DNA of 45,087 nt from a bacterium. GTDB taxonomy: Bacteria; Patescibacteriota; Minisyncoccia; Minisyncoccales; UBA10102. Below, piece after piece: positions 1-39,618 of the stretch. The translations under genes were made by a program, and so were the position numbers. Under the pieces are notes generated by a model that had not been told where the DNA came from, ran no database searches, and saw nothing but the letters and a program-made list of their open reading frames with translations. Where the stretch lies: NCBI GenBank assembly GCA_030647485.1, contig JAUSJT010000004.1, positions 1-45,087 of the forward strand. The letters are read 5' to 3'. The stretch's first letter is position 1; each line of letters starts with the position of its first letter.

Positions 1-3000
1 GGCAACGTCGGCATCAACGATACAACTCCTGATGGACTTTTGGATCTTGATAGCTCCGCAACTGCTACCAATGTACTTGGCATTACAAATACAGCAATAT
101 TCACAGGAACAGGAACCTCATCGGTAGCACAAATTACCGCAAACTCTCTCACCGCTGGTACTGGTATTACTCTTTCTATTACCGGCCTCACCACAGGCAC
201 AGGACTTTCCATTGCAGGAGGAGGAGCGAACCTCGCGGCAGGAGGCGAACTCATAGACCTTGTCATGGGGCTGGCAACCGCAGGCAACGGCATGAACATC
301 ACTTCAACAGGAGCATACGCTGGAACAGGACTTCTTCTCCTGACCGCAGACTCTGCAACCGGAGGCACCATACAGGCAATCACTGCCGACGCCCTTACCA
401 CGGGAACAGGCCTTGCGGTTTCTTCAGATTCCAATGAAGCGCTGGCAGCAGGCAGACTTGCGAGCTTTGTCCATTCCGCAGTTGGAACAGCCGTGGTTGC
501 AAAGACCGGCAGCTTATTCTCTCTCACCTCATCAATTACAGAATCCGGCACTAGCACCCAAGACTTTGACGCGGCGTCCTTCGTACGCACCAGCATTCAC
601 GACACAGCCGGAACCCTTACTGCCACAGGTTCAGTGTTGTACATTGAGAACGTAGCAACCCAGACTGCCGCAACCCTTGCAGACACCACGAAAGGCATTG
701 AGGTAGTAATGGATGCAGACGGCACAGGAGACGGCATTGAGGTTACGCACAACGCTCTTACCGGAGTTGCCCTTGACGTCATATCCCTTGCAAACACAGG
801 TTCGGGGCAGGTGATCACAGCCAACTCGCTGACCACAGGCACCGGCCTAAGAGTTATTTCCTCCGGAGTCATTGCAACCACAGGAGAGCTTGTGGAGTTC
901 ACTGCTTCAGGAGCAACCACGACAACAGGAGCTGTGCGTCTTACAACCGCTGTTCTCTCAACCGGAACAGCCTTGCTCGTGCAGACCAACACTGCAGCCT
1001 TTACCACAGGAGGCAAGGCAATAGAGATTGACCTTGTTGCCGCAGTAGCAGGAAACGGTCTTACCATTGCAACCACCGGAGTATATACCGGCACTGGCCT
1101 TCTCACCATCACAGCCAACGGCCTTACCACAGGCACAGGTCTTGCCATCAGTTCAACCGCTACAGGGCTCACCACAGGCAGTCTGCTCTCGGTCACCACT
1201 TCAACCACTGGAGCTGTTGCCACGAATGGCGTTGTGTCCATATCCTCTTCTGGAGCCTTTACCTCAACCTCTAATGCAGGTCTCTTGAATGTTGCAGCCA
1301 CAGGGCTTGTGGGCACAGGCACCATGGTAAACATCAATCCCTCAAACGTCTCTCAACTTACCAACACCGCCCTGAACATATCCCAAACAGGCGTGACAAC
1401 CGGATACACCGGCACCTTGGTTTCCATCAGCTCAACCTCAACAACAGGAGCTGCCACGTTCTTTGCAATCACTGACAACGTTGCCACTGTTGCCACTGGC
1501 CAAGCAATTTCCATGACAGGCCTCACCACAGGCACAGGACTTTCCATTGCAGGAGGAGGAGCGAACCTCGCGGCAGGAGGCGAACTCATAGACCTTGTCA
1601 TGGGAGCTGCTACTGCAGGGAATGGACTTACGGTGAGCACTACAGGCGCCTACACAGGAACAGGATTGGTGGTTCTCACTGCGAACAGTTTGACCACAGG
1701 CATTGCGTTGAGCATACCTCACACTACCTCGGTCATTGCCAGCGGAGGATCTCTTGCCAGAATATCCTCCACTTCCATAGATACCAGCACAACCACAGGA
1801 GTGCTGCTTGACCTCTCTTCCACCGCATCTCTTGCCGGAACCCAGTTCTTACAAACATACTCTGGTTTAACTACAGGCATTGGACAGTCCATAGTAACTA
1901 ACGCCTTGACCACAGGAACAGCGTTAAATATCAGTTCCACATCTACTGCAGGAGGAGCAAGCGGAGTTTCAAAACTTCTCAACCTTGCAAGGTCAGGGGC
2001 TAATGCCCAGCTTGCGCACACCGCATACGGTCTGTACTCCGCGGTTACCAATACCAACGCAACTTCTGGCACCAATGTCGCGGGATACTTTTCCGCATCT
2101 GGTGCAACCACTGCAAACTACGCCATTCAGGTGGCGCAGAACAACTGGATTGGCGGCATAGACAGCGCAACAACCGGAGTAGTGCGAATGTTTAAGATAA
2201 ACGCTTCAGATCAAATTCAAGTGGGAGCTGCCTTAAGCATGGACGGGGGCATTACCCTTCCAACAGACGCGGGAGCCGTAACGTTGGTTGACCTGCCCCT
2301 TAGTCTTACCTCGTCAACTGCGAATTCCTATACCTTCAAAATAGGTTCCGACAATATCTTAACAATATATGGGGAGTCTGGCGCAACAGCAGGCCTTTTG
2401 TATAACGGTAGGGTGGGCATTGGCGACATTACTCCAGATGCTATCTTTGACATAGACGGAACAGCAATATCCGGTGGCATTGGAACAGTTCTCGTCACCC
2501 CAGGAGCCCATACCGCAGTCGTTGCAGAAGTGATTGATATATCTGTTGCTGCGCATACAAATACCATCACAGGAGCTATTACAACTCAAAGATTCACTAA
2601 CTTTGCACAGCCAGTCATCTCTGCTGCTTCTGGCCTTACCGTCACTACCGCAGCCAATATTGCTATCGCAGGAACTCCCAACCCAACAGGAGCGGGGCCA
2701 GCTACTATTACTAATGCATTTGGCTTAATGCTTGGAACCGCCCTTGCAACTGTTCCTGCGTATAGCGCTTCTAACGCAACTACTATTACCAGTGCCGCCA
2801 TGCTCTATGTTGCTGGTGCTCCTGTAACAGGAGGTAATGTTACAGTAACCAATGGCTATGCTCTCTGGGTAGACGGGGGAAAGACGCGATTAGATGGAGG
2901 AGGCACATCTGCCCAAGCTAGCGCAGCAGGCGGAGTATTAGAAATACAAGCGTCCACCGTTAATGGAAACAATGCCAGTAGCACTATTGCCATTGGAGCG

Positions 3001-4731
3001 TCAGTGTCTATAGGCGTGACAACCTATACGAACAATACCGCTACCCTAACAATGACTAATGCCGCAAGTATGTATATTGCAGGAATACCTGTGGCAAGTA
3101 CAAATGTAGCGTTCACAAATCCTGCCTACGCCCTCTGGGTGGATGCGGGAACGAGCAGGTTTGACGGCGCAGTAACCTATGGCTCCCAAGCTACATTCAC
3201 CGATTCGGATGCCACTCCTGATGTTTCTGCGGGTTCCCATTTTATAACCAACACCACGGCAGTAACCATTACCGACTTTGACGCGGGGGCTGGAACCTTG
3301 CAGGCAGGCCATATTATATATGTAGAGAGTAATGGAACCATTACCTATGATGTTGACGGGGGTCTTCTTGAAGCTGGGGCAGTTGACTTGGTGACTGCAG
3401 CAGGAGATCTTACTACTTGGATATACGATGGAGTTGATGACTGGATCCTTGTTTCCTGGATGAAGAATTCTGCCACCCAAACCGGCGCTGACGTTGCAGA
3501 ACTTTTCCCAAGCCAAGAGCAGCTTGAACCAGGAGATGTGGTGTCTGCTGACACCGGATATCCAGTGAATGTGAAAAAGAGCGTGGCAAAGTATGAGAGA
3601 CAGCTTCTCGGTGTTGTGTCCACCCAGCCCCATATTACGCTTGGTCAAGGCACCGAAGGCACCACCTATCCTATAGCTCTTGCAGGACGCGTGCCAGTGA
3701 AGGTTTCGCTTGAGAACGGCCCGATTGTCATTGGCGATCATCTTACTTCTTCTACTATTCCTGGAGTTGCAATGAAAGCTACGTCTACGGGGAACACCAT
3801 AGGTATTGCCTTGGGAGCATACGACGGCACACAGCTAGAAGCAAAGATTATGGTGTTTATTCAGCTTGGCTGGCAAGGAGGGAGCGCCTTGAGCGTGTAT
3901 CAAAACGCAGACGGCACTCTTTCTTATGAGGCTCTTACGGTTAAGGCAGGCTTTGAAGAGCTCGGTTTTACAATAACAGGGCAGGGAGAGCTTCAGGTTA
4001 ACAAACTTACGACACAAGAACTTTGCGTGGGAGCAACCTGTATCACCGAAACCACCCTCTTAAACTTAATGGGATTAAGTTCTCCACAGCCTGGCACCAC
4101 ATTGGCGGTAGAAGAACAGAATAGCCAGCTTGTAAACACAACTCCTCTCCAGACGCAGTTAGCCGAGCTGGGCTTGGTAGTAAACACCAACGGGGCATTG
4201 GAGGTAAACATCTTAAAAGCCCAGCGGGTGGAGATTACCAGTCCTTATGGCCTTACTATATATGATGTAGTGACGGGTCAGCCCCAGTGCGTGTTCTCGC
4301 AAGAAGGCCAGCTAAGAACTATTGCAGGCAAATGCGACGGCATTGTAGCCAACGTACAGCCTAGTGGAAGTGAGACTTCACCCGGAGGGGGCAGTCTCAC
4401 TTCGGCCCCAATAGAGGAGCCAGTAGCCCCAGCTCCAAGCCCAGTTAGCAGTGAAGTCGAACCTCAATCAGCAGAGGGCGGTTCGACTTCGACACTAATA
4501 GAGCCAGAACCAGCTCCCGCGCCAGTGCCAAGCCCTGAACCAATCCTAGAGCCTGCCTCAGTCTTAGAGCCAACTCTTGAGCCCACGCCTACGCCAAGTC
4601 CTGAACCAGCTCCAACCCCAGAGTCTGTTCTAGAACCTGCCCCAGCCCCTGCCCCAGAACCAGCTCCTGCCCCAGCTCCTGAACCAACCCCCGAACCTAT
4701 TCCATCAGAAACCTCAGCAGTCATTCAGTAA
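1..4731 (+). CDS. Giant repeat-rich surface protein, 5' end outside window
   Basis: The reading frame is open from base 1, so the N-terminus lies outside the window. The first codons read GNVGINDTTPDG, a motif that recurs as GRVGIGDITPDA near base 2410 and is common in fibre-like surface proteins. Most of the chain (to about base 2160) is a Thr/Gly/Ala-rich repeat built on variants of LTTGTGL, probably a beta-helical stalk. Around 3480-3860 follows a non-repetitive domain (DVAELFPSQEQLEPGDVV), then two related segments near 3950 and 4160 (EELGFTITGQGELQVN and AELGLVVNTNGALEVN). The last 110 residues are Pro/Glu/Ala-rich and carry two in-frame palindromes. No C-terminal membrane anchor is visible. 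A cell-surface adhesin or fibre role is inferred from architecture only. Confidence 0.8.
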   Translation, partial: GNVGINDTTPDGLLDLDSSATATNVLGITNTAIFTGTGTSSVAQITANSLTAGTGITLSITGLTTGTGLSIAGGGANLAAGGELIDLVMGLATAGNGMNITSTGAYAGTGLLLLTADSATGGTIQAITADALTTGTGLAVSSDSNEALAAGRLASFVHSAVGTAVVAKTGSLFSLTSSITESGTSTQDFDAASFVRTSIHDTAGTLTATGSVLYIENVATQTAATLADTTKGIEVVMDADGTGDGIEVTHNALTGVALDVISLANTGSGQVITANSLTTGTGLRVISSGVIATTGELVEFTASGATTTTGAVRLTTAVLSTGTALLVQTNTAAFTTGGKAIEIDLVAAVAGNGLTIATTGVYTGTGLLTITANGLTTGTGLAISSTATGLTTGSLLSVTTSTTGAVATNGVVSISSSGAFTSTSNAGLLNVAATGLVGTGTMVNINPSNVSQLTNTALNISQTGVTTGYTGTLVSISSTSTTGAATFFAITDNVATVATGQAISMTGLTTGTGLSIAGGGANLAAGGELIDLVMGAATAGNGLTVSTTGAYTGTGLVVLTANSLTTGIALSIPHTTSVIASGGSLARISSTSIDTSTTTGVLLDLSSTASLAGTQFLQTYSGLTTGIGQSIVTNALTTGTALNISSTSTAGGASGVSKLLNLARSGANAQLAHTAYGLYSAVTNTNATSGTNVAGYFSASGATTANYAIQVAQNNWIGGIDSATTGVVRMFKINASDQIQVGAALSMDGGITLPTDAGAVTLVDLPLSLTSSTANSYTFKIGSDNILTIYGESGATAGLLYNGRVGIGDITPDAIFDIDGTAISGGIGTVLVTPGAHTAVVAEVIDISVAAHTNTITGAITTQRFTNFAQPVISAASGLTVTTAANIAIAGTPNPTGAGPATITNAFGLMLGTALATVPAYSASNATTITSAAMLYVAGAPVTGGNVTVTNGYALWVDGGKTRLDGGGTSAQASAAGGVLEIQASTVNGNNASSTIAIGASVSIGVTTYTNNTATLTMTNAASMYIAGIPVASTNVAFTNPAYALWVDAGTSRFDGAVTYGSQATFTDSDATPDVSAGSHFITNTTAVTITDFDAGAGTLQAGHIIYVESNGTITYDVDGGLLEAGAVDLVTAAGDLTTWIYDGVDDWILVSWMKNSATQTGADVAELFPSQEQLEPGDVVSADTGYPVNVKKSVAKYERQLLGVVSTQPHITLGQGTEGTTYPIALAGRVPVKVSLENGPIVIGDHLTSSTIPGVAMKATSTGNTIGIALGAYDGTQLEAKIMVFIQLGWQGGSALSVYQNADGTLSYEALTVKAGFEELGFTITGQGELQVNKLTTQELCVGATCITETTLLNLMGLSSPQPGTTLAVEEQNSQLVNTTPLQTQLAELGLVVNTNGALEVNILKAQRVEITSPYGLTIYDVVTGQPQCVFSQEGQLRTIAGKCDGIVANVQPSGSETSPGGGSLTSAPIEEPVAPAPSPVSSEVEPQSAEGGSTSTLIEPEPAPAPVPSPEPILEPASVLEPTLEPTPTPSPEPAPTPESVLEPAPAPAPEPAPAPAPEPTPEPIPSETSAVIQ
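184..269 (+). repeat. 86-bp perfect direct repeat, copy 1
   Basis: This stretch is identical at the DNA level to bases 1519-1604. It encodes the segment GLTTGTGLSIAGGGANLA and the residues after it. Identity at silent positions over 86 bases points to a recent duplication or gene conversion, not only selection on the protein repeat. Confidence 0.9.
1519..1604 (+). repeat. 86-bp perfect direct repeat, copy 2
   Basis: Second identical copy of bases 184-269 inside the same stalk region. The two copies are about 1.3 kb apart in direct orientation, so recombination between them would delete about 445 codons in frame. Confidence 0.9.
4367..4403 (+). repeat. In-frame inverted repeat, 11-bp arms
   Basis: GAAGTGAGACT (4367-4377) and AGTCTCACTTC (4393-4403) are perfect reverse complements around 15 bases. 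They lie in frame inside the surface protein at the start of the Pro/Glu tail and encode part of SGSETSPGGGSLTS. Confidence 0.9.
4453..4490 (+). repeat. Second in-frame inverted repeat, 11-bp arms
   Basis: GAAGTCGAACC (4453-4463) and GGTTCGACTTC (4480-4490) are perfect reverse complements around 16 bases. The architecture matches the inverted repeat at 4367-4403, but the arm sequence differs. It encodes part of SSEVEPQSAEGGSTSTL. Confidence 0.9.
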
Positions 4732-6558: not shown

Positions 6559-6582
6559 AGCGCATGAATCCTCCGTTTCCAA

Positions 6583-6640
6583 CTAAATTCCATTTAGTTA
6601 TCCACAGCTAAACGTCCACAGCTAAACGAGATTTAAGCAC
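6583..6640. repeat. Double-hairpin repeat, copy A, with partly duplicated core
   Basis: The hairpin CTAAAT-TCC-ATTTAG (6583-6597) is followed by the core TTATCCACAG (6598-6607). Then come CTAAAC, a second partial core (TCCACAG) and an imperfect hairpin CTAAAC-GAG-ATTTAAG. This is the family architecture of two 3-nt-loop stems around a 10-nt core, read in the reverse orientation. The core contains the exact sequence TTATCCACA, the E. coli consensus DnaA box. Confidence 0.8.
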
Positions 6641-6709: not shown

Positions 6710-6796
6710 ATGATAAGGAAAAAGTTTGAGCAAGGTAATATTTATCACGTGTATAATAGAGGCGTTGAAAAACGCGACGTTTTTCTTCTGCTTTAG
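6710..6796 (+). pseudogene. RAYT transposase remnant (N-terminal 28 codons)
   Basis: A frame reading MIRKKFEQGNIYHVYNRGVE, then KRDVFLLL, stops at a TAG. It aligns closely with the start of the intact transposase at 6967 (MKRVRFEKGKIYHVYNRGVE, then KRSIFL). The homology ends exactly where the hairpin-rich cluster begins, so the gene has lost its HUH motif and catalytic Tyr region. The remnant and the complete copy lie in tandem in the same orientation. Confidence 0.85.
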
Positions 6797-6966
6797 AATC
6801 CTGCCTAAGTCAATCCTGCCTAAGCCTCGCTCAATCCTGCCTAAGCCTCGCTTAGTTATCCCCACCTAAGCGAGGCTTAGGTGGTAGCCAGGACCCTTTC
6901 TTTAAGATTATAATTATGAATATAAGAGAATCCTAAGCCTCGCTTAGGCAAGCTTAGACGATTGTT
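6797..6966. repeat. REP-like hairpin cluster
   Basis: Several variants of CCTAAGC(CTC/GAG)GCTTAGG fill this non-coding stretch. The best unit is CCTAAGCCTCGCTTAG (6840-6855), core TTATCCCCA (6856-6864) and CCTAAGCGAGGCTTAGG (6865-6881), again two triloop hairpins around a core. Partial units (CCTAAGT and CCTAAGCCTCGC, each preceded by AATCCTG) precede it from about 6800. A further hairpin, CCTAAGCCTCGCTTAGG (6932-6948), lies 18 bases before the intact RAYT. Confidence 0.85.
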
Positions 6967-7686
6967 ATGAAACGGGTTCGATTTGAAAAAGGGAAAATTT
7001 ATCACGTATATAATCGAGGCGTTGAGAAACGGTCCATTTTTCTCTCCGAGGGCGATCGCTGGAGATTTCTTCAAGGTCTGTATTTATTTAATGATGAAAC
7101 TGGATCTGCCAATCTTTTGTATCGTCTTGAACAAGAAAAAGGCAAGATGCACTTTGGTATTTTGCGCGAGTATATGGCCCGGCACGGCGCTAAACGGAAA
7201 CCATTGGTTCGCATTATGGCAGATTGCTTGAAATCAAATCACTTTCATATGGCAATTGAAGAAACAACGGAAAACGGCATTTCAAGATTTATGCAGAAAT
7301 TGGGCACTGGTTATACAAAGTACTTTAATACTAAGTACGAACGAGTAGGTCCTTTATTCCAGGGCCCATTCAAGGCAGTAGAGGTGAAGAGCGATGAACA
7401 GCTTATGTATCTTCTTGCGTACATAAACGCAATCAATCCAGGACAGGAACTGGAACCGGAACTGAAGTCTGCCGCGCAAAACCCCGAAGAAATATTGAGT
7501 TTTATAGAGGATCATTTTCTGTGGAGCACGCACTTGGAATATCTTGGGAAGCGCGATTCTATTATCGTTGACAAGGGTATTGCAGGTGAGCTTTTTTCTA
7601 GCCCTGTACGATACAGGAAGTTCATAGCAGATATTATACGAGGTAAACAAAGATCGGGATTGCAGGATAATCTCCTGTTAGATTAA
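6967..7686 (+). CDS. REP-associated tyrosine transposase (RAYT, Y1/IS200-like)
   Basis: The protein has 239 residues. The N-terminal motif FEKGKIYHVYNRGVEKR and the HUH motif NHFHM (His92, His94) identify the Y1 transposase superfamily. The helix around residues 109-119 (MQKLGTGYTKYF) supplies the candidate catalytic tyrosine (Tyr116 or Tyr119). RAYTs nick single-stranded hairpins, and this gene is embedded in such hairpins (6932-6948 upstream, a half-element at 7688-7712 downstream). Its paralogue at 26416 has the same length, but its flanking hairpins have an unrelated stem sequence. The gene appears intact, whereas the tandem copy at 6710 is broken. Confidence 0.9.
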   Translation: MKRVRFEKGKIYHVYNRGVEKRSIFLSEGDRWRFLQGLYLFNDETGSANLLYRLEQEKGKMHFGILREYMARHGAKRKPLVRIMADCLKSNHFHMAIEETTENGISRFMQKLGTGYTKYFNTKYERVGPLFQGPFKAVEVKSDEQLMYLLAYINAINPGQELEPELKSAAQNPEEILSFIEDHFLWSTHLEYLGKRDSIIVDKGIAGELFSSPVRYRKFIADIIRGKQRSGLQDNLLLD

Positions 7687-7687
7687 T

Positions 7688-7712
7688 TTGTTGATAACTT
7701 AACCAGGCTAAG
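7688..7712. repeat. Half double-hairpin repeat (core plus one arm)
   Basis: Core-like TTGTTGATAA (7688-7697) is followed by an imperfect CTTAAC-CAG-GCTAAG hairpin (7698-7712). It starts immediately after the RAYT stop codon and ends 3 bases before the comF start codon. AAGGA at the end of the arm could double as a closely spaced ribosome binding site. Confidence 0.6.
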
Positions 7713-7715
7713 GAT

Positions 7716-8501
7716 ATGAGAGAGATGTTGGAAAAAGTGAGGAATGGGGTGCTTGGAACAAACGGAGTACTGGGCAGAGTAGGCAGGGGTATTTTAGACG
7801 TGGTGTTTCCGGTACGATGTGTTGGGTGTGGAGAAGAAGGACACTATATATGTAGGAGATGTGAAGGTTTTACAAGTGAAGCTGCTTTGATTTGCCCTTT
7901 GTGCCAGCAATCTAGCTTGACTGGAGAACGCCACGAGAATTGCAGGTCACTGTATGGGTTAGAGGGTTTGGCAAGCGTGTGGGAATACGAGGGGGTGGTG
8001 AAAAGTCTTCTTCATAATATAAAGTACAATGGCATGACCCATGCGATTGCAGAAACAGTTCAGAGCGCATATATAAGCATGGCAGGCGATACAATGCGAT
8101 TTAAAACATTTCTCTCTTATTTGTTTTCCAAAGACACCTGCATAACATATGTGCCAATGTTTAAGAGAAAAGAAAAGTTCCGCGGTTTTAACCAGGCTAC
8201 TGTATTTGCAAGAGAAATGGGAAAAGTAGTTAAGAGGGAGGCGGTTTCTTTACTCGAAAAAATAGTAGATACAAAACCGCAGGTAGATCTTACAAAAGAA
8301 GAACGGTTGCAAAACCTGAAAGGGGCCTTTCAAGTAAAATTCGAAATCCCTGCCTCGCCGGCAGGCAGGCGAATCCCCAAAAACGTTGTACTTGTTGATG
8401 ACGTCTGGACTACCGGTGCTACTATGAAAGAGTGTTGCAAAGTTTTGAAAAAGTCGGGAATCCAGCAGGTATGGGGTTTTACGGTGGCGAGAACACCTTG
8501 A
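7716..8501 (+). CDS. comF: ComF-type phosphoribosyltransferase-like competence protein
   Basis: The protein has 261 residues. An N-terminal zinc ribbon has the CVGC, CRRC and CPLC pairs (residues about 33-68). It is followed by a PRTase fold with the PRPP-binding loop VVLVDDVWTTGATM near residues 224-237. ComF family proteins are needed for uptake and processing of transforming DNA, together with DprA. The next genes are dprA and comM, which fits one competence block. A palindrome (8349-8369) is embedded in frame just before the PRPP loop and adds the residues PASPAGRR. The ATG at 7716 is the first start after the preceding repeat. Confidence 0.9.
   Translation: MREMLEKVRNGVLGTNGVLGRVGRGILDVVFPVRCVGCGEEGHYICRRCEGFTSEAALICPLCQQSSLTGERHENCRSLYGLEGLASVWEYEGVVKSLLHNIKYNGMTHAIAETVQSAYISMAGDTMRFKTFLSYLFSKDTCITYVPMFKRKEKFRGFNQATVFAREMGKVVKREAVSLLEKIVDTKPQVDLTKEERLQNLKGAFQVKFEIPASPAGRRIPKNVVLVDDVWTTGATMKECCKVLKKSGIQQVWGFTVARTP
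8349..8369. repeat. In-frame palindrome in comF
   Basis: CCTGCCT (8349-8355) and AGGCAGG (8363-8369) pair around CGCCGGC. The palindrome encodes residues 212-218, a loop between the PRTase core strands just before the PRPP-binding motif. An inserted palindromic element is the likely source. Confidence 0.75.
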
Positions 8502-11161: not shown

Positions 11162-11202
11162 CTAAACCGAGTTTAGTTGTGGAGAACTAAACTCGGTTTA
11201 AG
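11162..11202. repeat. Double-hairpin repeat, copy between comM and yraN
   Basis: The hairpin CTAAAC-CGA-GTTTAG (11162-11176), the core TTGTGGAGAA (11177-11186) and the hairpin CTAAAC-TCG-GTTTAAG (11187-11202) show the two-stem family architecture with a diverged core. It starts 2 bases after the comM stop and ends 6 bases before yraN. Confidence 0.85.
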
Positions 11203-11208
11203 CAACAT

Positions 11209-11592
11209 ATGGCGGAACATAATACAATAGGGGAAGAAGGGGAAGAGACTGCTAAGAGGTATTTGGAGAGCAAGGGATATAAAATTATTGCAAGAAATTG
11301 GAAGACTAAACGAGCGGAAATTGACATTATTGCTTGTCTTAACCAGGGGTTTTTGGGGCTAGGCAAGAGCCTGCTTGTCTTTGTAGAGGTGCGGACAAAA
11401 CGTCATGAACAGTACGGCACGCCGGAAGAAACCATTGATTATGAAAAACGCATGAGACTGCGGCGAAACGCAACAGCATATATTCATCGAACAAAATACC
11501 GCGGTCCATACCGTATAGACGCCATTTGTTTGATTATTGGGAGCAACGGACTTCAACGTATAGATCACTACGAAAGTATTGTCGAAACTTAG
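11209..11592 (+). CDS. yraN: UPF0102 (YraN) nuclease-fold protein
   Basis: The protein has 127 residues. It starts MAEHNTIGEEGEETAKRYLES and contains the YraN/UPF0102 core: NWKTKRAEIDIIA, then VFVEVRTKRHEQYGTP. The Glu, Asp and E-x-K/R residues match the restriction-endonuclease-like (PD-(D/E)XK) fold. The biochemical role is unknown; the family is often next to DNA-processing genes, as here after comM. The stop codon lies inside the first arm of the next double-hairpin repeat. Confidence 0.85.
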   Translation: MAEHNTIGEEGEETAKRYLESKGYKIIARNWKTKRAEIDIIACLNQGFLGLGKSLLVFVEVRTKRHEQYGTPEETIDYEKRMRLRRNATAYIHRTKYRGPYRIDAICLIIGSNGLQRIDHYESIVET

Positions 11593-11627
11593 TCTCACTA
11601 AGGTGTGAATAACTTAACCTGGTTAAG
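11588..11627. repeat. Double-hairpin repeat overlapping the yraN stop
   Basis: CTTAGT-CTC-ACTAAG (11588-11602), core GTGTGAATAA (11603-11612) and CTTAAC-CTG-GTTAAG (11613-11627) form the family architecture. The first arm supplies the yraN TAG stop. The core's reverse complement, TTATTCACA, fits the DnaA-box consensus TTATNCACA. The second arm's TTAACC lies 18 bases before TATACT (11638-11643), so the repeat may also donate a -35-like element to the next gene. Confidence 0.88.
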
Positions 11628-11655
11628 GATATAATGGTATACTGATACATTATAT

Positions 11656-26369: not shown

Positions 26370-27177
26370 GGCTGGGCGAAACCGGGTTTCGCCCAGCCCA
26401 TCGGGCAGTAATATTATGAGAAGAAAAATTCCATTCGTCGTAGGGAAAATCTACCATATTTATAATCGAGGTGTTGCTAAGTGCCAAATTTGCAATGGAG
26501 AAGCGGACTGCTGGAGATTTATGCAAGGATTATGTTTATTTAATGATACTAAGAGTACAAGCAGTATACTCTGGCATCTTGAGCGAGATCGAAGTAGACT
26601 CACTATGAATGTGTTGAAGCAATATCTTGTTGATCACGGGAAAAGTAGAGAGCCGCTCGTGCGTATTATGGCGTATTGCCTTATGGGTAATCACTATCAT
26701 CTTATATCTGAAGAAATCCAGGAGGGCGGAATTACAAAATTTATGCACAAGCTCGGCGTTGGATATGCAAATTATTTCAATAACAAACATAAGCGAGTGG
26801 GAAGTTTGTTCCAGGGCAGGTTTAAAAACGTGTTAGTTGAAACCGACCAGCAGCTTCTTTACTTGCTGGTCTATATTAACGTGTTGAATCCTGCTGAGTT
26901 TGTTGCGCCAAATTGGAAAGAACAAGGAATACCAAATATAGGAAAAGTGTTACAATACGCAGAGAGTTACATCTGGGGTACGCATTTGGAGTATTTAGGA
27001 AAGCGGAAGTCACTGATTATTGATAAAGGAATTCTTGATGAGATGCTTCCCACGCCAGAAGCGTATCTTGAATTAGTATGTGGTGTGTTGAGGGGAAAGA
27101 AATACGAAGCAGTAGCTGAACTTATGCTCGAGTAAGGTTTAGGCTTGGGCTGGGCGAAACCCGGTTTCGCCCAGCCC
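26370..27177 (+). mobile_element. Complete REP-RAYT-REP unit
   Basis: The left hairpin (26370-26398) has a 13-bp perfect stem GGCTGGGCGAAAC and a CGG triloop. The right hairpin (27147-27177) has a 14-bp perfect stem GGGCTGGGCGAAAC and a CCG triloop. The two ends are inverted relative to each other and enclose one RAYT gene. The unit sits between ftsK and a pilin-like gene, both apparently intact. Its stem sequence is unrelated to that of the other RAYT's hairpins, but the long-stem/triloop design is the same. Confidence 0.85.
26416..27135 (+). CDS. RAYT-type IS200-like transposase, second copy
   Basis: The protein has 239 residues, the same length as the RAYT at 6967. It has the same framework: GKIYHIYNRGVAK, the HUH motif NHYHL (His93, His95), and the candidate catalytic helix MHKLGVGYANYF (Tyr117 or Tyr120). 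The frame is open upstream to 26254, but that part crosses the REP hairpin and overlaps ftsK, so I start at the ATG at 26416 in front of the family's first motif. It is flanked by inverted hairpins, its presumed substrates. Confidence 0.9.
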   Translation: MRRKIPFVVGKIYHIYNRGVAKCQICNGEADCWRFMQGLCLFNDTKSTSSILWHLERDRSRLTMNVLKQYLVDHGKSREPLVRIMAYCLMGNHYHLISEEIQEGGITKFMHKLGVGYANYFNNKHKRVGSLFQGRFKNVLVETDQQLLYLLVYINVLNPAEFVAPNWKEQGIPNIGKVLQYAESYIWGTHLEYLGKRKSLIIDKGILDEMLPTPEAYLELVCGVLRGKKYEAVAELMLE

Positions 27178-38277: not shown

Positions 38278-38306
38278 ATGATATCACGAGGATTTAAGTG
38301 CGTCAA
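38278..38306 (-). promoter_or_regulatory. Leaderless promoter of the secG operon, inside the uvrC 3' end
   Basis: On the minus strand -35 TTGACG (38306-38301), 17-base spacer, -10 TATCAT (38283-38278), then 6 bases to the ATG at 38271. The -35 lies within the last codons of uvrC. Confidence 0.7.
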
Positions 38307-39618
38307 CCTTTCTAAGTTTCCTGTGATAGGTGACGGCAAAGCGATGGGCTTCGTCGCGCACGTGCAAAAGGAGGTTAGAAACCTCCTGGGGAAGGTTTCG
38401 GAGCAAGACCGGGTCTGCTTTCCCTGGAGAAAAGAGCTCATTATTCCGTTTTGCCAAAGCAACAACCTTAATTTTTTGCAACTTAATCTCATTAAGGTGT
38501 GGATAACTTAATTCCATTAAGTTTGAAATGGCTTTGAGGGCAGAAGAAAGCTGGCCTTTTCCTCCGTCAATGAGCATAAGATCGGGGTAGGGCCATTCCG
38601 TGTGTTTGAGGCGTCGGGAGATGAGCTCTTGCATCATGGCAAAATCATTCGGTTTGCCAGTGATATGGATCTTGAATTTTCGGTACCATTCTTTTGCGGG
38701 TTTTCCTTTTAGAAAGGTTACCATAGATCCCGTAGACTGTTTGCCCTGGATGTTGGATATGTCATACGCTTCTATTCTCGTATACCCTGACCAGGGTTTT
38801 GGGAGAGGAACATCCTGTGAGGGTTGCCAGCGCACTGCGTGAGATAGCACATTCTCTAAGGAGAAAATCTGGTCTCGCAATACTGCTGCTTTTTCAAAGT
38901 CTTGTTCTTTGCTTGCTTGCGCCATTGATTTCTTAAGGTTTTTGAGAACAGAGGTTCTACCTCCCCTAAGAACTGCAGCAAGGTTCTTAATATTCTGTTT
39001 GTATTCTTTTGGGTTAGGATTGGGCCCTGGGCACAGATCAATATGGCAATAAGGACAAGGGAGTATGGGATGTTTCTTTGCGGTGTAGTAAGGGAATGCC
39101 CGTCTCAAAAGGCGCAAGACCTGTTTGATTGCCTTTCCCTCAACGAAAGGCCCGATGTAGTTAAAATTCAAGTTAGTGTCCAAGCGGCTAGTGCCTAAGC
39201 TAGTGCCTAAGCGAGGCTTAGGCATTCCTAAGCCTCGCTTAGGCAGAAATCGCTTAGGCAGAAAGGGTTGATGGGTTAGAAATACTCGAGGGAATTTCTC
39301 TTTTGTGATGGCGACATAGAAATACTTCTTGTCGTCCTTCCACATAACGTTGTACTTTGGCTGGTGTGATTTTATAAGTTGGGATTCAAGTAATAGAGCG
39401 TCAATTTCAGATTGAGTTTCAAAGTATCCTACTCTGGTTACTTGGGATATGAAAAGATTGTCTCGGTATGAGGCTTTGGCAAAGTGGTTTTTTACGCGGT
39501 CTCGCAGGTTTGCAGCCTTTCCGATATACAAGATTTCTTTTCCTCCCAAGAAAGTATATACTCCCGCAGTTTTTGGGATTGGGTTGATGTTTTTTTTGGC
39601 GATATACCTGAATTTCAT
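38284..39618 (-). CDS. uvrC: UvrC-type nuclease, short, carrying two in-frame repeats
   Basis: The protein has 444 residues; typical UvrC has about 600. The order is a GIY-YIG domain (TAGVYTFLGGKEILYIGKA), a Cys-rich stretch (PCPYCHIDLCPGPNP), a UVR motif (EQDFEKAAVLRDQIF) and an RNase H-like domain (IEAYDISNIQGK, LMLIDGGKGQLSSAL, VVALAKRNNELF). The C-terminal HhH DNA-binding region is missing. Residues about 121-147 and 367-380 are insertions created by palindromic repeats. The UvrC role in making the dual incisions of excision repair is expected. The divergent neighbour across a 445-base gap is uvrA. Confidence 0.92.
   Translation of the reverse strand: MKFRYIAKKNINPIPKTAGVYTFLGGKEILYIGKAANLRDRVKNHFAKASYRDNLFISQVTRVGYFETQSEIDALLLESQLIKSHQPKYNVMWKDDKKYFYVAITKEKFPRVFLTHQPFLPKRFLPKRGLGMPKPRLGTSLGTSRLDTNLNFNYIGPFVEGKAIKQVLRLLRRAFPYYTAKKHPILPCPYCHIDLCPGPNPNPKEYKQNIKNLAAVLRGGRTSVLKNLKKSMAQASKEQDFEKAAVLRDQIFSLENVLSHAVRWQPSQDVPLPKPWSGYTRIEAYDISNIQGKQSTGSMVTFLKGKPAKEWYRKFKIHITGKPNDFAMMQELISRRLKHTEWPYPDLMLIDGGKGQLSSALKAISNLMELSYPHLNEIKLQKIKVVALAKRNNELFSPGKADPVLLRNLPQEVSNLLLHVRDEAHRFAVTYHRKLRKVDALKSS
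38482..38521. repeat. Double-hairpin repeat inside uvrC, archetype copy
   Basis: CTTAAT-CTC-ATTAAG (38482-38496), core GTGTGGATAA (38497-38506) and CTTAAT-TCC-ATTAAG (38507-38521). Both stems are perfect 6-bp pairs with triloops. The core's reverse complement contains the DnaA box TTATCCACA. Read on the uvrC strand it encodes LMELSYPHLNEIKL between the GKGQLSSAL motif and VVALAKRN, where UvrC proteins normally have only a short loop. Confidence 0.9.
39205..39243. repeat. Second hairpin pair inside uvrC
   Basis: GCCTAAGC-GAG-GCTTAGGC (39205-39223), spacer ATT, then CCTAAGC-CTC-GCTTAGG (39227-39243), with degenerate half-arms on both sides (39193-39202, 39251-39259). The stem sequence is the same as in the RAYT cluster at 6797-6966. 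It encodes PKRGLGMPKPRLG within uvrC and keeps the frame open. Confidence 0.9.

Follow-up and report, generated by a model that had tools for sequence, protein, structure and literature searches.

REP dimers with a fixed DnaA-box core, linked to one RAYT clade, in a bacterial family

The palindromic repeats scattered over the window (the whole 45,087-nt stretch of DNA that was analysed) are REP dimers, miniature elements of the REPIN/BIME kind, arranged around a fixed, asymmetric 9-nt core, TTATCCACA. REP dimers themselves are already known; the new feature is the fixed DnaA-box core within them, and our literature searches returned no report of DnaA-box-cored REPs or MITEs, or of RAYT-DnaA links, beyond PMC6006769. 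In the explanation that we favour, with a probability of about 0.6, the dimers are mobilised by RAYT1, a REP-associated tyrosine transposase encoded in the window, and by its relatives; the core travels as part of the element and would be read during RAYT1 processing.

Results

Anatomy and positions of the cored repeats

An element consists of two inverted palindromes with CTT...AAG (or CTAA...TTAG) feet, as in TCCTTAACCCCGTTAAG-TTATCCACAC-CTTAACGGGGTTAAGGA. As a single strand it is predicted to fold into two small hairpins, or into one hairpin of 15-17 bp with the core in its loop. The palindromes are present in high copy number both singly and as inverted dimers, as in REPs and REPINs.

The original prediction had placed DnaA-box words in three repeats of the window. 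All three were found, although its 10-nt spans were one base too long; the exact 9-mers are TTATCCACA at 6598-6606 (+), TTATTCACA at 11604-11612 (−) and TTATCCACA at 38498-38506 (−). The slightly deviating cores that it described are also present, namely TTATCCCCA at 6856-6864 (+), TTCTCCACA at 4080-4088 (+) and TTATCAACA at 7689-7697 (−), and to these we add one that had been missed, TTCTCCACA at 11178-11186 (−). Two more TTATNCACA words, at 26741 (+) and 43321 (−), lie outside the repeats.

The core at 38498-38506 sits in a REP dimer (38473-38531, −), made up of the H1 palindrome, TTATCCACA and the H2 palindrome, that lies in frame within uvrC. The TTATTCACA core belongs to an intergenic dimer (11579-11637, −), and the TTCTCCACA core at 11178-11186 to a further dimer (11162-11201, −). 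Upstream of RAYT1, the dimer with core TTATCCCCA (6841-6880, +) folds as a whole into one 17-bp stem with the core within a 10-nt loop. At 6581-6606 (+) the H1 palindrome AACTAAATTCCATTTAGTT and the core TTATCCACA precede a degenerate H2; within the ORF at 40-4731, H1 and the core TTCTCCACA stand without H2 (4063-4088, +). A palindrome with the core TTATCAACA is located at the 3' end of RAYT1 (7684-7717, −).

Abundance against chance

In the window the word TTATNCACA was counted 5 times, where 1.27 occurrences would be expected; 1 of 100 shuffles contained as many as 5. Genome-wide counts, taken from searches and fetched stretches, gave 39 occurrences in the 630-kb genome; Markov models predict 14-18, and the reversed pattern gave 7. 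This genomic excess is confined to TTATCCACA (27 found, about 4 expected), and the variants of TTATNCACA with A, G or T at position 5 are at background level. About 14 of the 39 lie inside the repeats. Roughly half of the 27 TTATCCACA words, among them two upstream of mraZ, are outside palindromes, so part of the excess may be due to ordinary host boxes.

Palindromes like AACTTAATNNNATTAAGTT number 41 in the genome and 2 in the control. When they were scored blind to the core, 22 of the 41 had at least 7/9 positions of TTATCCACA in register, compared with 0.7% of random positions. The other 19 have no core, and the same is true of most of those sampled in the related genome G002; the core therefore cannot be strictly required for the spread of the palindromes.

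Fixation of the core across the family

For a core-blind search, the arms and the spacing of the dimers were fixed and the ten spacer bases left free, with ten genomes per pattern. Dimers were counted once per element, and these counts are "at least" values because G018 and part of G017 were left out. Of the 126 elements among the matches listed, 101 differ from TTATCCACA at no more than two positions (at least 7/9 positions agree in 64 of the 84 CTT-type and in 37 of the 42 CTAA-type elements listed), and control counts were 0-2 per genome. The 101 near-TTATCCACA cores listed include 66 exact copies, 12 TTATTCACA and 11 TTATCCCCA. The hits without the core either match by chance or are dimers whose spacer is self-complementary, as TTTTGCAAAA is; in G002, G003, G006 and G008 a minority of dimers have fully self-complementary spacers (TTTTGCAAAA, TTAACGTTAA, GAGCTC) in place of the core.

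At least 28 different stems, with loops of varying size, share the core TTATCCACA, and the cores listed deviate from it by 4.5% per site. These deviations fall at particular positions only (chi-square p = 5e-10, a value that ignores shared descent): among the 101 cores listed, position 5 varies in 15 and position 7 in 14, positions 2 and 6 never vary, and A or G is found at position 5 in none. The tenth spacer base is free (C 49 and A 15 in the first set, with G also common in the second), and the conserved block is exactly the 9-mer. A structure-only dimer scan over 180 kb of the relative G012 recovered the same core: where same-family dimers there have a gap of 7-9 nt, most carry TTAT[C/T]CAC[A/G] or something close to it. 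When 246 genomes of the order were compared, cored dimers were numerous only in the family of the window, and the repeat had no match in a phage collection. Most of the relatives identified by sequence probably belong to the Patescibacteria. The preference of the cores for a DnaA-box word that the original prediction assumed thus holds both genome-wide and family-wide, for TTATCC[A/C]CA or TTATTCACA and not for TTATNCACA generally.

One could suppose that AT-rich palindrome feet give TTAT... and that the core, coincidentally matching a DnaA box, is merely copied along. The stem often includes the TT of positions 1-2, paired with AA, and CCAC may represent a RAYT tag (GTGG); perhaps only about three positions would then need to coincide. 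Unconstrained positions would, however, have drifted along with the stems, whereas one core, little altered and variable only at certain sites, is found between all these stems. We regard such a coincidence as very improbable.

RAYT1 as the likely mobiliser

RAYT1 (6967-7686, +) is a Y1 HUH transposase that scores above the Pfam cut-off for Y1_Tnp and contains the HUH motif NHFH and the invariant tyrosines, including the catalytic one. Among PDB structures, its predicted fold (mean pLDDT 78) best matches 4er8, the complex of a RAYT with a REP hairpin (E 9e-4, probability 1.00, TM by target 0.64), which assigns it to the RAYT-REP fold. As expected of RAYT genes, RAYT1 and its relatives are flanked by genome-recurrent palindromes. 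A truncated duplicate of the RAYT1 5' end (6713-6787, +) is followed by an array of CCTAAGCCTCGCTTAG repeats.

The RAYT1 clade comprises 10 loci with 70-76% identity (support 98/86), found only in the family of the window. A copy of the core lies near all 10 genes by eye and near 6 in a strict automatic test; these nearby cores are canonical or TTTTCCACA, the latter at the truncated G016 locus. Sister RAYTs from the same and other families (44-59% identity) have plain flanking palindromes, often TTGCTT...AAGCAA, with an automatic near-core call in L137 as the single exception, and the link of the core is exclusive to the RAYT1 clade. Since sister RAYTs have plain palindromes and cored dimers occur in one family only, the core is a derived add-on of one RAYT lineage, and it was probably added in the ancestor of the family to an older, coreless RAYT/palindrome system. 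The genome encodes four other RAYTs, each with its own flanks. One of them, at 26422-27135 (+), is framed by a perfect 31-nt inverted repeat (26370-26400 and 27146-27176) that is itself palindromic (GGCTGGGCGAAACCGGGTTTCGCCCAGCC) and represents a different, coreless REP family.

Mobilisation of the dimers by RAYT1 and its relatives, most probably as single-stranded DNA, is likely. A point against it is that G010, G011 and G012 contain elements and no detectable RAYT; these genomes are 80-91% complete, so loss of the RAYT and a missing contig are both conceivable. The cored copies of G012 are nearly identical among themselves. A DnaA-like domain in RAYT1 was also considered and rejected, as no match to a DnaA_C/HTH domain was obtained in its C-terminus with E up to 10.

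Copies inside uvrC

The uvrC gene (38284-39618, −) contains two separate in-frame REP-derived inserts. The cored dimer at 38473-38531 is translated as ISNLMELSYPHLNEIKL; the other insert, in the UvrC linker, consists of coreless REP palindromes (39204-39261, +) with in-frame translation on the − strand. The insert is present in G000, G002, G004 and G008, with related versions in the same loop in the last three, and absent in G005 and others; G003 has its own coreless REP in this loop. Relatives have repeatedly received inserts in this loop, which belongs to the RNase H domain, and each of them has a REP type of its own there. Earlier work already described uvr genes with in-frame REPs (PMC3733652).

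These empty versions bear on another proposal of the original prediction, that the transposase targets a DnaA-like sequence and inserts the palindromes at pre-existing sites. The word is indeed present in every cored dimer. It lies, however, inside the element between the element's own two palindromes, coreless palindromes are common, and the insert-free uvrC orthologues have no such word at the site, which indicates that the box arrives with the element. We consider targeting scarcely credible and regard the core as a part of the element that would travel with it.

The DnaA of the organism and its native boxes

The dnaA gene (C3:27260-25900, −) lies beside dnaN and rpmH, and the DNA-binding domain IV of its product carries GGKDHTTAIYAC, conserved in relatives. 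Upstream of dnaA, at C3:27409-27439, are three boxes, TTGTTCACA, TTATCCCCA and TTCTCCACA, in tandem with an 11-bp period and 2-bp spacing, a layout shared by several relatives. The native origin boxes fit TTNTNC[A/C]CA, and together with the organism's DnaA they make the core a plausible DnaA site. The pattern TT[A/T]TNCACA is matched by 79 of the 101 cores listed, and 11 more are TTATCCCCA, which also stands at native origin positions. The original prediction was to be abandoned if the cores showed no preference or if the DnaA box of this organism differed; neither is the case, and the native boxes are compatible with the core.

Some sites outside the elements may serve the host. Two TTATCCACA and one TTATCCCCA lie just upstream of the mraZ/division cluster (L017 about 1286-1326; C2:217285-217325), with a similar motif pair in G006 (C5:16522-16558), and could mark a DnaA-regulated promoter. 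AAGTTATCCACAGCTT (L028 1367-1382; C4:98866) overlaps a promoter-like TTGACA; many genomes of the order have this 16-mer exactly once, and it may therefore be a conserved host DnaA site.

The original prediction further suggested that palindrome-framed boxes titrate DnaA, the host keeping dispersed sites as a sink. The density of TTATCCACA, 27 in 0.63 Mb compared with 32 in the whole E. coli genome (PMC11317965), would suit this idea. The distribution in G002, a single contig whose origin is placed near 510 kb by GC skew and dnaA, does not: between ori and ter its 18 elements are uniformly distributed (KS p = 0.56), and they have no strand bias (9 co-directional with the fork, 9 opposite), so neither origin-proximal clustering nor bias was seen. 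The boxes are single and isolated, and some copies lie inside uvrC and the ORF at 40-4731. In E. coli, by contrast, a region of high box density lies near the origin (PMC12371093) and DnaA prefers paired boxes in vivo (PMC11317965). Host titration is quite unlikely on these grounds.

RAYT tag or DnaA site

The core is most likely read during RAYT1 processing, as a tag or a spacer between the two hairpins, and is by its sequence also a good DnaA box. In known REPs a GT[AG]G tag stands 0-2 nt away from the foot of the hairpin, and cleavage requires it or is guided by it (PMC6006769, PMC8266576). On the reverse strand the core reads TGTGGATAA, with GTGG 2-4 nt from the hairpin foot, and with this reading a likeness to a DnaA box is not as improbable as it first seems. 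That a GT[AG]G guide alone accounts for the conservation does not fit the pattern of variation: such a guide predicts change at position 6, which is invariant (0/101), and the guide positions 5 and 7 are the most variable. GTGG is absent from 29 of the 101 cores listed, which show no A/G-type degeneracy at position 6, and in these cores the tag positions 5-8 vary more (30/404) than the remaining positions (11/505). With shared descent as a caveat, the greater variation of the tag positions and the invariant position 6 speak against a simple GT[AG]G guide and slightly in favour of DnaA. The misfit at position 6 and the 19 coreless palindromes also count against the explanation that we favour.

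The core could be fixed through RAYT reading or through DnaA binding; possibly DnaA binds it as well, under selection for this binding. A mobile element that carries a selected DnaA-binding site, coupled to replication initiation or aiding single-strand exposure at forks, is a tentative alternative that we hold to be less than likely. It agrees with the conserved block being exactly the 9-mer with a free tenth base, with the variability of positions 5 and 7 in the native boxes of the family as well (the dnaA-dnaN box, for instance, has A/C at position 7), with the core having been added later to a RAYT system that functions in its absence, and with the persistence of intact-core elements in G010 and G011, where no RAYT was found. 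Against it, the native boxes vary freely at position 3 (T being commonest) and use G at position 5, which the cores almost never do, and the native origin boxes are tandem with 2-bp spacing, whereas the box of the element is single. A DnaA box in the IS50 end has been reported to help Tn5.

Discussion

The elements resemble the REPIN/BIME REP dimers and their RAYT (TnpAREP) (PMC3116915, PMC2817692, PMC8266576) in having short palindromes, alone or as inverted pairs, that are dispersed over the genome and also flank the gene of a Y1 transposase, in the 4er8-like predicted fold and in palindromes whose sequence changes between genomes. They differ in that the hairpins do not each have a GTAG/GTGG tag at one foot but share one asymmetric 9-nt core with the sequence of a DnaA box. 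The GTAG- and CGTC-tagged REP super-families (PMC3733652) likewise have a conserved unpaired tag beside variable stems and intragenic in-frame copies, including those in nucleotide-excision-repair (uvr) genes; in place of the two described tags we find TTATCCACA, in which the reverse-strand GTGG positions are not the most conserved.

TIRYT, or TnpA subclass 2.1 (PMC6006769), is also a Y1 transposase with inverted-repeat flanks, which its authors compared with DnaA boxes. There the protein has a Bac_DnaA_C-like C-terminal domain and the repeats lack boxes, whereas here the box is in the repeats and RAYT1 has no DnaA_C match. The E. coli DnaA titration boxes (PMC12371093) are similarly dispersed and of consensus type; ours are single, part of a repeat and not concentrated near the origin. 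Rickettsia palindromic elements (RPE; cited in PMC3733652) are translated in frame within genes as well, and the present elements differ from them in the RAYT link and the DnaA-box core.

REP/RAYT systems are common, and why their repeats persist is unsettled. A lineage with the recognition word of the initiator as its repeat core, kept while the stems change, offers a testable link between REPs and DnaA, and the gained and missing sites form a natural set for such tests. The sequences leave some room, at less than even odds, for a REP dimer with a working DnaA box as cargo, which might let the element draw on DnaA. If DnaA binding is selected, RAYT-driven spread could be tied to replication initiation in these very small genomes.
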